Shown here piece by piece: positions 30,494 to 38,792 of a stretch of DNA of 64,000 nucleotides (the stretch's first letter is position 1; each line of letters opens with the position of its first letter). Source of the DNA: Sphaerochaeta associata. Its GTDB lineage: Bacteria; Spirochaetota; Spirochaetia; Sphaerochaetales; Sphaerochaetaceae. The notes below the pieces were generated by a model. That model searched no databases. It saw only the letters and a program-made list of their open reading frames with translations, and was not told the DNA's origin. The stretch is from NCBI RefSeq assembly GCF_022869165.1, contig NZ_CP094929.1, forward strand, positions 2,232,001 to 2,296,000. Reading direction: 5' to 3'. The position numbers and the translations under genes are program-made.

Positions 30494-30719
30494 GGCGCCG
30501 ATTCATACACCTGTCCAAGCAGGGAAAGAAAAATGAGCCCTTGACTTGACCACCCTTCCCTATTTCGATACCGTACACTCAATTGACTTGAGGAGGACCA
30601 TCCTGATACCCGACGCTTTCCCAGCCTTCCTTGCAAGTGGGAACACCCACCTTGTGAAACTTTTCAAACTTCCGGTAGGACTTTTTACCACTTTCTATAC
30701 ATCACGACTTTTTAGTGTT

Positions 30720-31259
30720 ATGAGCATTTTCGACCAGTTCCCCATTGAACTGCTTCTCTTGCTTTTCTCCCTTTTCACCCTGCTCTTCGCTTATACCATT
30801 CAGCGCCCCTCAACGCACCTGCTGAGAACCCAGCATGCATTGTTGGTCGAGGATATCCTGCAACACGACCAGTTCCTCAAGCTCAAGGAGTACCGGCATC
30901 ACACCAACCATATCTACGACCATGCCCGGCGTGTTTCCTACCTCTCGTTTCGCATCAGCAAGGCATTGGGGATGGATTATCAGGCAGCAGCCCGAGGCGG
31001 CTTGCTTCACGACTTCTTCCTCTACGACTGGCGTGAGAGAAAACAAAACGACGAAAAGCGTTCGAGCCATGGAAAGGAACACCCTTTCATCGCTTTGGAG
31101 AACGCAAAGACCTATTTTTCCGTCAATTCATTGGAAGAGGATATCATCACCAAGCACATGTTCCCGAAGACCCTGGCCCTGCCCAGGTATAAGGAGAGCG
31201 TGGTGGTAAGCATCTCGGACAAGATTTCAGCAATCTACGAGTACGTAGTACGCGCCTAG
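30720..31259 (+). CDS. membrane-anchored HD-domain phosphohydrolase
   Basis: This is about 179 residues from ATG 30720: an N-terminal membrane helix (IELLLLLFSLFTLLFAYTI), then an HD domain with HHTNHIYDHARRVS, the metal-binding LLHDFFL, and HPFIALENAK. Such domains hydrolyse phosphate esters of nucleotides; the substrate is unknown. The 5' end is uncertain. The frame is open upstream to about 30546, and AGGAGG at about 30592 precedes a CTG or ATA codon that could start a longer form; ATG 30720 itself has no ribosome site. It is convergent with and overlaps the hydrolase gene by four bases. Confidence 0.75.
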   Translation: MSIFDQFPIELLLLLFSLFTLLFAYTIQRPSTHLLRTQHALLVEDILQHDQFLKLKEYRHHTNHIYDHARRVSYLSFRISKALGMDYQAAARGGLLHDFFLYDWRERKQNDEKRSSHGKEHPFIALENAKTYFSVNSLEEDIITKHMFPKTLALPRYKESVVVSISDKISAIYEYVVRA

Positions 31260-32106: not shown

Positions 32107-32994
32107 CTACCAACTCTGCTTCAGCAGATTCAAAAGGTCGATGCGGCTCCTCACCTGGGTTTTCCCGTAGATATTAGCCACATGGTTGTTCACCGTGTTT
32201 GCGCTGATGCCAAGCTGGCTTGCGATCTCCTTGTTGGTCAAGCCTTGGCTTATCAAGCGGATGACTGCAAACTCGCGCTCAGTGATATGGTACTCCTCCA
32301 AGTCCTCTAAAACAAGCTCTTTGTTCTTGACCACCGTCGACCTTCCCAAACGCACAAATTCCATGAATAAGAACGTCATGATGGTAATTGAGAGCGCCAG
32401 AAAGTAGATTCCGAACAACAACGGCTTGAGTGAGGGAAAGAGCAAGGCAAGCAGGATGGCGGGTACCATCGCTGCACTGACGATGATGATTGAAATCGCT
32501 GAAGTCCGGGCGGTCTTGTTTGCAATGGAGTTGATGTTCTTCAATGTCACCGAGAGACAGAAGGCAATGACGAAGACAAACAGCATGAGCATCAACTGGT
32601 CTATGATGAGCTTCTGCCAAAGTTCACGGCTTATGCCAAGCACCAAGTAAACCAGTGCGAGCACGTAGAACAACCCCTTGTACGGCTGTCTCCAAGGGTG
32701 AGCAATAACCCAGGTGGTAAAATAAGGGATGAATACAATAAGGAAGGTGAGATCGGCGATGACGATGAAGGCTATGCTGTAGGTGATGACATCAAAGACC
32801 AAACCCGAGAGATAGATACGTGAAAGGAGCTGCAGGGCCATCAGCATCATGCATCCCAACAGGGATGCATGACAGATGATGAAATAGGTCGCCCACCTCT
32901 GCTTGTTTGCCAGGCGGTAGACGATGGCAAGGGCCAAGGTCATGCACCCGAGGGCGAAGGCAAGCATGTATACGAGCAGCAGGATTCCACTCAC
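32107..32994 (-). CDS. seven-helix membrane regulator with C-terminal LuxR HTH
   Basis: This 295-residue protein has two parts. Residues 1 to about 215 contain seven clear hydrophobic helices (for example GILLLVYMLAFALGC, LMLMLFVFVIAFCLSV, IYFLALSITIMTFLF). The C-terminal 65 residues are a LuxR/GerE DNA-binding domain: EREFAVIRLISQGLTNKEI, then LGISANTVNNHVANIY. It would be a one-component sensor that binds DNA from the membrane. The start is GTG 32994 with only a weak upstream site. The next gene downstream is a hydrolase, and RloB-like and AAA genes lie upstream, ending 6 bases away. The signal is unknown. Confidence 0.85.
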   Translation of the reverse strand: MSGILLLVYMLAFALGCMTLALAIVYRLANKQRWATYFIICHASLLGCMMLMALQLLSRIYLSGLVFDVITYSIAFIVIADLTFLIVFIPYFTTWVIAHPWRQPYKGLFYVLALVYLVLGISRELWQKLIIDQLMLMLFVFVIAFCLSVTLKNINSIANKTARTSAISIIIVSAAMVPAILLALLFPSLKPLLFGIYFLALSITIMTFLFMEFVRLGRSTVVKNKELVLEDLEEYHITEREFAVIRLISQGLTNKEIASQLGISANTVNNHVANIYGKTQVRSRIDLLNLLKQSW

Positions 32995-33000
32995 CGCCTG

Positions 33001-33648
33001 CTACCCGTTCTTCTTGTTCAGACCAAGTTGCTTCTGATTGTGAGTCAGGTCCGCCAATCCGCAGATCTCGGTGATGTCATTGAGCATTGCAACGATATTG
33101 GTTGGCGCCAAGCCCAGCTTTCCTGCAACCAACGAGTTGTAGGAGCTGGCATTGACGGCAGCCTTCGACTTGGCTGAGTAGAGCCTCAAATGCAGGTTCA
33201 TACCCTCCCCAAGCAGATAGGAAGCACTGTTGGAGAACGAAGGGAATTGCTTGGCCAGTGCACTCTCAATCATTTTGGGATCCTGTACAAAGCCCTTGGG
33301 GGCCTGCAGGTGCAACAGGTACCAAAGCGGCAGGGAAGGATTGTTCCAGGCAAGCCTGACTTTCTTTTTCTCTGCAAGTACAAGCAGCTTGGAGACATCT
33401 TCCGAAGAAACCTTGAGATCGGCAAAACCGAATACCACCCATACACTGCTGTAGTTGCCGCTGTTGCGCATCTTGGCTGCAGTAGTGATCAAGCTGGAGA
33501 GGTCCTTGCAGTCCTGCTCCCAAATAACCGTCATATTGGAATAGCGGCAGTCCTTGCGCATCTGGGAGAAATACAAGGCCTCCGCTTCGGTTGCCGTCAC
33601 CAAGAGAATGGTTTGGCGGGGCTGTTGGGAAATTCGTTTGCGTGCCAT
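33001..33648 (-). CDS. RloB-like protein with apparently degenerate TOPRIM-type active site
   Basis: This 215-residue protein sits directly behind an AAA ATPase gene, the standard RloA-RloB (AbiL-type) order. The RloB scaffold is visible: an N-terminal basic stretch, a strand with LLVTATEAEALYF, VWVVFGFADL, LAWNNPSLPLWYLLHL and a helical tail. From the usual family pattern (C-E-G-E-K-T-E, F-D-R-D and F-E-L-W-L-L-L-H) I would expect acidic residues where this protein has Thr, Gly/Ala and Pro. The catalytic acids therefore seem lost. GGAGGA lies before the ATG. Family assignment is fairly secure; loss of activity is inference. Confidence 0.72.
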   Translation of the reverse strand: MARKRISQQPRQTILLVTATEAEALYFSQMRKDCRYSNMTVIWEQDCKDLSSLITTAAKMRNSGNYSSVWVVFGFADLKVSSEDVSKLLVLAEKKKVRLAWNNPSLPLWYLLHLQAPKGFVQDPKMIESALAKQFPSFSNSASYLLGEGMNLHLRLYSAKSKAAVNASSYNSLVAGKLGLAPTNIVAMLNDITEICGLADLTHNQKQLGLNKKNG

Positions 33649-33650
33649 TG

Positions 33651-34898
33651 TTACTCCTCCTTATCCTTGTTCGCATCGATGAAACAGAACTCCGAAAGAA
33701 TCGGAAGGGCACCGAACGCTCCATTCATATATTGACTCTGCGTCTTGTCCTTGCTGCGTGAGTACTTGAAGTTGGCCAAGCTGAAATAGACGGTGGCGCT
33801 TTCACTGTTCTTTTCGGCAAAGTACACGCCGTCGCGTCTGAGCAGGCCCGGACGAAGCAACGAGGGGTTGCAGTCGACCACCAGCATCTGCGAGTTGCAC
33901 TCATTATTGCTGGCCTCAAAGATCTCTACGATGTGGCACAATACGTTGGGGTGCAGGAGCATGCCGAAGTCATCGATGATCAAGGTCCTGGGCTTGGTGA
34001 AACTTTCAAAGAATGCCACACCCATCAAACACAGTCTTCTGAGGCTCAGGCTCTCCAAGTTGAAGAACGAGGCGTAGTGCTGGGTGACATTGGTATGGAT
34101 GAAAATGAGGCGGTCGTCCTTGACACGAATGTCGCGGATGTCGGTGATATCGACACTCCACAGGAAGTTGATCAGCTGCTGCACCCAATCAGGATGCTCG
34201 GTAAGCTGGGTGATCAGATACTTCTCGCTGATGTTCGAAACACCCATGGGAAGCAGATGCAGACTCTCATTGAACCAGGTGTACAGCGGTCCTGTCGTAT
34301 CACTGCCCTTGACTGCTGAAGCTGCAAGGTAGGAGTGCTTCTCATCAACCTTGCCCACCAGACGCTTCTTCTCACCGCGATAGGCTTTGCCCCATCGATA
34401 TGTATACGTCAGCTTGACATCATCAAGCAGAAGGGCCCCTTCATCAAGCTTGCGCTCAAACATCAATTTCTTCGATCGTTTGATCAAGTGAAAGAGAGAT
34501 TCCTCGAATATCTTTTCACGGTCGGCGACCAGGGTATACTGTGCGATTACCATCTCGCCGCTCTGCTCATCCTTTCCAAGCAGGATGCGGATGATGATGG
34601 TTGCAGGCTGCCCTTTCTCCTCAGAGTACGCAAATGAAGTACCGCTGAGAATCTGCAGGGGGTTCTCCGTCTCCTCTGCCGCGCACACAATACCCTTCAG
34701 CGCTTCCAAGGCACGTACAAACGAGCTTTTGCCCGCTCCATTGGGCCCTACAATGGCCGCAGTCTTGATAAGTCTCAACTTCTCGGTCACCGGTACAACC
34801 TTCGATTCGGGAAAACGGTTGTCCTTGACAGCCTCAAACGAAATCGTCTGAGCCGACTTTACGGACTTGAAGTTCGCTATCGTCATATCCAGCAGCAT
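33651..34898 (-). CDS. RloA/AbiL-type AAA ATPase (AAA_15/AAA_21)
   Basis: This 415-residue ABC-like ATPase of the family found in abortive-infection modules begins DMTIANFKSVKSAQTISFEA, then Walker A GPNGAGKSS (about 51-59). A late Walker B reads LIIDDFGMLLHP, where D-E is more usual, and the C-terminal family tail is LLRRDGVYFAEKN...YFSLANFKYSR. It is probably a sensor/motor that controls the RloB-like partner 2 bases downstream. AGGAGG lies 6 nt before the ATG. It is flanked by ordinary genes; no integrase, repeats or transposase is seen. Confidence 0.85.
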   Translation of the reverse strand: MLLDMTIANFKSVKSAQTISFEAVKDNRFPESKVVPVTEKLRLIKTAAIVGPNGAGKSSFVRALEALKGIVCAAEETENPLQILSGTSFAYSEEKGQPATIIIRILLGKDEQSGEMVIAQYTLVADREKIFEESLFHLIKRSKKLMFERKLDEGALLLDDVKLTYTYRWGKAYRGEKKRLVGKVDEKHSYLAASAVKGSDTTGPLYTWFNESLHLLPMGVSNISEKYLITQLTEHPDWVQQLINFLWSVDITDIRDIRVKDDRLIFIHTNVTQHYASFFNLESLSLRRLCLMGVAFFESFTKPRTLIIDDFGMLLHPNVLCHIVEIFEASNNECNSQMLVVDCNPSLLRPGLLRRDGVYFAEKNSESATVYFSLANFKYSRSKDKTQSQYMNGAFGALPILSEFCFIDANKDKEE

Positions 34899-34932: not shown

Positions 34933-35565
34933 TTACAAAAGTGTTTCCATCTTCCCATACACCTGCGGCCATGCATTGAGGCATTGGACCAGGCGGAGGG
35001 GAAGCGTTTCATCTCCATGATTGTCCGTCGCTATGAGGTCAATCAAGTCTCGTTTCAGATACCCAAGGGAGTCGCCATTCTCCACTGCTTCCACGTTTGT
35101 TTGCAAGAGGCAGCCCAATTTCAGCAGCTCGCCGAGCAACGCACTCTGCGGTTCAAGCCACCGATAGCGTTCCACATGGGCAAGGATGGGCGTCAGCTTT
35201 TGCAGGATGAGAGTCTCTATGCGCTCAAGCAATCTCGCGGGGGGAAGGGAGAGCCCGAACTCAAGCAGAGCGTACTTTTGGGCGATAGGCACACAGACAA
35301 GCCGGGCCTGGTCTCCCACGTAGAGTTCACTACCCAAATAGGTGGTAATACCCTCCTTTGCAGCCTCTCCCTGCGCCCAGGCAAACGTCTGACGCAAATC
35401 TGCGATATTGGTGGTCACAAACGGGTTGTAGATATGGGGAGTGAAGGCGATGGTCGTAATCCCGTTCTCCAAATACAGATGGAGCATACGGGAAAAAGAT
35501 TCTTTGGAAACATAGCCATCATCGATCAAGGGAAGCAGATGGCAGTGAAGATCGCAAAGGCCCAT
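34933..35565 (-). CDS. PHP-domain phosphatase, CpsB/CapC-like
   Basis: This 210-residue metal-dependent phosphatase has the PHP signature DLHCHLLPLIDDG at the N-terminus, FTPHIYNP, an acidic GSELY and a late HVERYRW. This pattern matches bacterial tyrosine phosphatases of the CpsB/YwqE group that act on polysaccharide-synthesis kinases, though histidinol phosphatases are related. No cognate tyrosine kinase or capsule gene is visible, so the target is open. GAGGAG lies 6 nt before the ATG. Confidence 0.82.
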   Translation of the reverse strand: MGLCDLHCHLLPLIDDGYVSKESFSRMLHLYLENGITTIAFTPHIYNPFVTTNIADLRQTFAWAQGEAAKEGITTYLGSELYVGDQARLVCVPIAQKYALLEFGLSLPPARLLERIETLILQKLTPILAHVERYRWLEPQSALLGELLKLGCLLQTNVEAVENGDSLGYLKRDLIDLIATDNHGDETLPLRLVQCLNAWPQVYGKMETLL

Positions 35566-38513: not shown

Positions 38514-38792
38514 ATGGCGAAATATCGTGAAGAAGATGATGAGCTCGATGATGAGGAAGATCGTTATTTCAGTAGGTTGGAGGACGAGGAAGACGCCTAT
38601 CTGGCTGATTTGTACGATGCTCCGGAAGTGATAGATTTCGGAGATGAAGACGATGAGATGCTCGATGACGAGGAAGATGAGGATGAACTTCTCGACGATG
38701 GCTTCATGGTCGAGGGGGATGAGTCTTTCGAGGACGAATTCTTTGAGGAAGAAGATGAATTCGACGACTTGGAAGACGAGGACATCCTCTGA
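38514..38792 (+). CDS. extremely acidic 92-aa protein of unknown function
   Basis: I do not recognise this protein. It has 92 residues, of which more than half are Asp or Glu, with few Lys/Arg (three in the first 25 residues). Runs such as EEDDELDDEED and DDEEDEDELLDD alternate with aromatic and aliphatic residues (FEDEFFEEEDEF). It has no Cys, no signal and no membrane helix. AAGGAG lies 8 nt before the ATG, and a terminator follows at once, so it is an independent gene. DNA mimic, chaperone tail or RNA-polymerase delta-like roles are possible but unsupported. Confidence 0.8.
   Translation: MAKYREEDDELDDEEDRYFSRLEDEEDAYLADLYDAPEVIDFGDEDDEMLDDEEDEDELLDDGFMVEGDESFEDEFFEEEDEFDDLEDEDIL

Follow-up and report, generated by a model that had tools for sequence, protein, structure and literature searches.

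The closest described relatives of the locus studied here are systems that join an ABC-type ATPase to a TOPRIM effector. RloB has been treated as a toxin of the OLD_TOPRIM type that its AAA partner neutralises (PMC10440598), and in AriB, a related TOPRIM tRNase, the substitution E26A inactivates the protein and abolishes tRNA cleavage (PMC12409363). AbiL (AbiLi-AbiLii, Lactococcus)/RloA-RloB shares gene order, ATPase plus RloB architecture and clear sequence homology with the gene pair described here. Canonical AbiL/RloAB pairs keep the motifs ESxGT, DE, T(T)H and E-G/DxD/E, whereas the pair in our sequence is without these, and we refer to pairs of the latter type as derived. PARIS (AriA-AriB, class 4 OLD) likewise has a split ABC ATPase and TOPRIM effector, but AriB needs E26 for tRNA cleavage and the corresponding motif-I Glu is Ala in the RloB-like protein of our pair. 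The OLD nucleases (TsOLD, 6p74; the C-terminal domains of Burkholderia and Xanthomonas OLD) have the TOPRIM fold that is predicted for this protein; in our pair, by contrast, the acidic metal ligands are missing, and ATPase and TOPRIM are two separate proteins.

An AbiL/RloAB-type gene pair with open reading frames

The window, by which we mean the whole stretch of 64,000 nucleotides that was analysed, corresponds to G000:C1:2232001-2296000 in the 3.55 Mb, single-contig genome of Sphaerochaeta associata. The two genes of the pair are both open, lie on the minus strand with 2 bp between them, and are each preceded by a GGAGG-type ribosome site (Table 1). The RloB-like protein scores 48.8 bits against Pfam RloB (PF13707, E 1.3e-12), above the gathering cut-off of 31.5 bits, and the ATPase matches Pfam AAA_21 with 52.4 bits. 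The best PADLOC models for the pair are AbiLi (E 2.3e-58) and AbiLii (E 2.1e-10). In the same comparison only a weak AriA match (2.9e-12) and no AriB match were obtained, so that PARIS AriAB is not the best match. Canonical pairs from related genomes score above the window pair with the same HMMs. An earlier, sequence-only reading had recognised the order of an abortive-infection module, ATPase then RloB, in two intact genes with good ribosome sites and no frameshift, and had proposed a comparison with PF13707; the single operon, the profile matches and the open frames bear this out.

Table 1. Positions in the window of the gene pair, its diagnostic motifs and its immediate neighbours.
Feature	Position	Strand	Evidence
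7TM-LuxR-type regulator, next downstream gene	32107..32994	-	GerE E 1.7e-17; membrane part by inspection
Derived RloB/AbiLii-type protein, predicted OLD-TOPRIM fold without catalytic acids, 215 aa	33001..33648	-	Pfam RloB E 1.3e-12
RloB FELW Glu site, P107	33328..33330	-	canonical E 17/17; core S14 E10 P9 A4 + others
RloB DxD site, G74-F-A76	33421..33429	-	canonical D/D 17/17; core first position G33 S8 D3 T2 A1
RloB lineage-specific motif F27-S-Q-M-R-K-D-C-R-Y36	33541..33570	-	F27, K32, D33, R35 invariant (24-sequence core alignment A2)
RloB motif I, A19-T20 for catalytic E-G	33589..33594	-	canonical E 17/17, G 17/17; core E 0/47
Derived AbiLi/RloA-type ATPase, Rad50/SMC/PtuA-like ABC head, 415 aa	33651..34898	-	PADLOC AbiLi E 2.3e-58
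ATPase switch-His site, DCN (342-344) for T(T)H	33867..33875	-	canonical H 18/22, Q 4/22; core D342-C343-N344 47/47
ATPase Walker B, DD (D309-D310) for DE	33969..33974	-	canonical E 22/22; core D 47/47; two other families D 4/4
ATPase ABC signature site, ESLSLRR (282-288) for canonical ESxGTxR	34035..34055	-	canonical G 22/22, T 21/22; core Ser285 47/47, Leu286 45/47
ATPase Walker A, GPNGAGKS (51-58), kept	34725..34748	-	G51, N53, G56, K57, S58 each 47/47 in core clade
CpsB/CapC (PHP) tyrosine phosphatase, next upstream gene	34933..35565	-	PF19567 E 7.2e-31

The derived pair is a family-wide chromosomal locus

An RloB match was found in 127 of the 139 genomes of the GTDB family; the derived type is present in 125, two of the matches (G043, G164) being weak ones to canonical copies. 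Strong ATPase matches occur in about the same set of genomes, about nine in ten of the family, and in a phylum sample such matches (E <= 1e-60) are confined to this family. Within it the pair is essentially single-copy and occupies one syntenic locus. Most family genomes without the pair are incomplete or small, at 1.1-1.7 Mb. Four of them (L258-L261) have joined flanks in the order lipoprotein - LuxR - gltX - glyS, so that the pair was either lost there or, less likely, never gained. An RloB-profile search of a class sample, together with two later searches, placed the derived pair in 4 of 6 genomes from two other families of the same class, and a scan of a contig collection with the ATPase alignment gave at least one true relative among the matches listed. 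In the tree, all derived sequences form one clade (100/100) on a long stem of 1.36, apart from canonical RloAB, and the family sequences form one clade as well (98/98).

Whereas the derived pair is vertical, family-wide and in a clade of its own, canonical RloAB copies are patchy and also occur on phage contigs. Canonical RloA relatives lie on 187 matched viral-contig stretches; the same search found the derived type on none of the viral contigs. Plasmid and phage records held nothing above 60% identity to the pair, the best full-length hits being about 25-27%. The patchy, mobile distribution of AbiL/RloAB is thus not seen for the derived pair (125/139 genomes, one locus, 0 viral contigs). We rejected mobile-element cargo as an account of the locus on its fixed synteny, its absence from viral contigs and the identities below 60% in plasmid and phage records.

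The window's genome also holds a canonical RloA-type ATPase gene whose RloB-like neighbour is broken by a TAA stop (L123:5775-7139 in G000:C1:375000-390000; G000:C1:382179-382520). Elsewhere, two different canonical RloAB pairs lie ~10 kb apart (L129:3521-5431 and L129:14663-16721, G035:C17), a possible defence island.

A catalytically dead pair could still serve defence as a decoy, sensor or inhibitor, for instance by restraining, like an antitoxin, the canonical RloB toxins of its host genomes, or by sensing phage and signalling to another effector. Its homology to AbiL is clear, canonical RloB copies coexist with it in many family genomes, and TOPRIM_OLD toxins are neutralised by AAA partners (PMC10440598). 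Nonetheless, we consider a continuing defence role unlikely: inheritance is vertical and near-universal at one housekeeping locus, the pair is absent from the viral, plasmid and phage collections, its neighbour genes are unrelated to defence, and it is retained even where a genome yielded no canonical copy (e.g. G001, G007, G011).

Catalytic residues are replaced in both proteins

Residues were compared in an alignment of canonical proteins from related genomes (17 RloBs, 22 RloAs), 47 core orthologues, and 4 members from the two other families of the class. Positions E19, G20, E23, D75, D77, E108, H114 and Y139 are invariant in canonical RloB (17/17), and the window protein has A19, T20, E23, G74, A76, P107, H113 and F138 at these columns. 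The four catalytic acids of the TOPRIM effector are changed (E19 to A19, D75 to G74, D77 to A76, E108 to P107), and with them the Glu and DxD metal ligands of an OLD-type TOPRIM nuclease. Across the core clade the motif-I Glu is found in 0/47 sequences, the first and second Asp of DxD in 3/47 and 19/47, and the FELW Glu in 10/47; E23 (40/47) and the His at window position 113, canonical H114 (45/47), are kept. A second, independent alignment with viral canonical homologues showed equal canonical conservation at these window positions. A shift of the catalytic acids to nearby positions was rejected, as none was found in the joint alignment.

AlphaFold2 was run on the window proteins, one relative from the contig collection and viral canonical homologues, and gave pLDDT values of 92.4 for the window RloB and 90.2 for the ATPase. 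With VIA-align, OLD-nuclease domains rank 1, 2, 4, 5 and 6 among the matches of the RloB model at modest Z values of 9.0-7.4 (9.0, 8.1 and 7.5 for the leading ones), a resemblance to the OLD TOPRIM domains with which comparison had been proposed. The fold call is taken from VIA-align, since a PDB sequence search returned no relative of RloB and Foldseek alone gave no match at E <0.001. In the model, the replaced residues would sit at strand ends (predicted beta strands 14-18 and 68-74), the places of the TOPRIM acids. The best PDB matches of the ATPase model are Rad50/SMC heads (Z 18-21) and PtuA (Z 18.8).

In the ATPase, Walker A is invariant in the core clade as GPNGxGKS and the other motifs are changed. 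Canonical signature residues G298/T299 correspond to S285/L286 of the window protein, Walker B E323 (22/22) to D310, and the switch His to Cys343, which lies within a new fixed VDCNP motif; S285, D310 and C343 are present in 47/47 core sequences, where the signature Gly, Walker B Glu and switch His of AbiL/RloAB would stand. New invariant motifs of the core orthologues are ESLSLRR, DDFG and VDCNP. As the same substitutions are fixed in relatives, they are not a chance feature of one gene. With Walker A intact, the ATPase probably still binds nucleotide; with the catalytic Glu, signature Gly-Thr and switch His all gone, ATP hydrolysis is likely to be slow or absent. The RloB-like protein, for its part, has probably ceased to cut nucleic acid.

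The sequence-only reading had seen IIDD in place of DE at Walker B, and Thr, Gly/Ala and Pro at the acidic positions of RloB. The Walker B change is real, but the loss in the ATPase was understated, since the signature Gly-Thr and the switch His are replaced too. For RloB it was right in substance, in that E19, D75, D77 and E108 are gone and were not merely displaced (motif-I Glu 0/47, first DxD Asp 3/47). In detail, however, it is Ala19 that stands in the column of the lost motif-I Glu, Thr20 takes the place of the adjacent Gly, and Glu23 and His113 remain, so that not every conserved site was lost.

The kept E23 and H113, together with the new invariant charged residues, would suit an alternative in which the proteins are still enzymes with relocated active sites, RloB acting through E23, H113, the new R-K-D-x-R-Y and N166 and the ATPase hydrolysing slowly through D310. 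We judge this improbable, because nearly all members have lost the motif-I Glu and the first DxD Asp, E26A by itself suffices to abolish AriB activity (PMC12409363), and the ABC composite-site signature and switch residues are gone in 47/47.

Gene neighbourhood

The pair stands in the fixed order pdxA - lipoprotein - cobO - CpsB/PHP - ATPase - RloB - 7TM-LuxR - alpha/beta hydrolase - gltX - glyS - tyrS, in which pdxA, glyS and tyrS were named by sequence inspection. The gap between ATPase and RloB is -83 to +12 bp in 47/47 loci. In 31/47 loci CpsB lies immediately upstream of the pair, at no more than 150 bp, and in 41/47 LuxR lies immediately downstream, within about 60 bp; both are then always on the strand of the pair. 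The order in the two other families is sugar-nucleotide transferase, Wzz/BY-kinase, CpsB, then the pair; all four loci carry CpsB and Wzz/BY-kinase (the latter split over shorter ORFs in 1/4), and in one of the two families the same LuxR gene follows.

CpsB of this type was found in 79/139 family genomes and not in the other 60, although the majority of those 60 still have the pair. The LuxR gene is also present in genomes that lack the pair. Neither gene is therefore obligatory for the pair, and strict family-wide co-occurrence of the pair with CpsB or LuxR was not seen among the 139 genomes.

Several further observations concern the surroundings. A Wzz/BY-kinase of 856 aa with a tyrosine-rich YGYGYG tail is encoded 48 kb from the pair (L256:6678-10918; G000:C1:2314677-2318917), adjoined by a putative SLBB-type export protein assigned by inspection, and is a likely partner of the window's CpsB phosphatase. 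In one family member, six copies of a CpsB-like phosphatase gene lie elsewhere than at the pair (G162:C1 19063, 2582397, 2643735, 2644699, 2647028, 2648621), suggesting an expansion of polysaccharide loci. In the window, positions 38514-38792 (+) may encode a 92-aa protein made mostly of Asp/Glu with recurring aromatics, overlapped by an opposite-strand ORF, and a 237-aa ORF at 30546-31259 (+), which on inspection resembles an HD-domain protein, is oriented opposite to the co-directional genes around it.

The synthetase genes raise the idea of a translation-linked complex, in which the dead TOPRIM would bind tRNA or other RNA and act with the adjacent gltX-glyS-tyrS. The relative AriB is a tRNase (PMC12409363), and gltX lies on the strand of the pair in 42/47 fetched loci, directly abutting it in one genus. 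Against this, the adjacency may be mere conserved chromosome structure, lipoprotein, pdxA and cobO being syntenic too, and the fetched stretches of one of the two other families showed no gltX. We give this RNA-binding role little credence.

Purifying selection on both genes

Both ORFs are open at 47/47 loci examined, and frameshifted homologues, which would have spoken for decay, did not appear. For the nearest genome pair dN/dS is 0.036 for the ATPase and 0.071 for RloB, as against 0.061 for gltX nearby; additional pairs give 0.01-0.11 for the two genes. All these values are approximate, since dS is near saturation. Simple decay of a defence module, to which the loss of catalytic residues taken alone might point, is rejected as next to impossible given the open frames, the low dN/dS, the invariant replacing residues of the ATPase and the long vertical retention. 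'Eroded', the term of the sequence-only reading for the catalytic residues, is the wrong word, as the replacing ATPase residues are themselves invariant. Its proposal of a repurposed, non-nucleolytic or domesticated pair in place of simple decay gains support from the replaced acids, the open frames, the low dN/dS and the presence of the pair in 125/139 genomes.

Discussion

The gene pair is homologous to AbiL/RloAB, but three tested features, the effector acids, the ATPase catalytic set and the distribution, show it to be no working member of this kind of defence. Sequence comparison shows that other residues occupy the catalytic centre of each protein, those in the ATPase being invariant, and that purifying selection acts on a pair that has been passed down vertically at a single chromosomal locus. 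We think it probable, with some confidence, that the pair is domesticated, nuclease-dead and without a part in defence. Counting against the nuclease-dead reading are E23 and H113, which RloB keeps, and the Asp that 19/47 core members have at the second DxD column. Most likely the pair is an ATP-binding complex with a housekeeping role, and this role is probably regulatory. No report of the derived pair in these bacteria was found in the literature.

The evidence is best explained if an ancestral AbiL/RloAB module, with an ABC-type ATPase sensor and an OLD-TOPRIM nuclease toxin, was domesticated before the families concerned split. ATPase and RloB would form a stable complex which, through its ATP-bound state and the RKDxRY surface conserved in RloB, may serve as a binding or signalling platform in place of a suicide nuclease. 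Control of envelope polysaccharide synthesis might then be exerted by this complex jointly with two products of the operon, the CpsB tyrosine phosphatase and the 7TM-LuxR regulator. We put forward this last step only tentatively. The evidence for it is gene order, namely the CpsB, Wzz/BY-kinase and transferase neighbours, and the position of the locus beside gltX-glyS-tyrS counts against it. Genes of CpsB/Wzc-type capsule phosphoregulation neighbour the pair both here and in each of the two additional families; no AbiL/RloB-type pair is known to belong to such regulation.

The usual picture of defence genes is one of mobility and rapid loss. The present case is a toxin-type defence pair that has been kept through the history of a whole family, with enzymatic sites lost and new invariant ones gained. 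The result also calls for caution with defence-finding tools, which can give the label AbiL to a core gene pair that is apparently inactive. It is possible, though on balance doubtful, that an abortive-infection module was converted once, before several families of the class diverged, into a core envelope regulator, a double pseudo-enzyme derived from an OLD-TOPRIM defence system. The locus makes the transition from immune module to housekeeping regulator directly testable.
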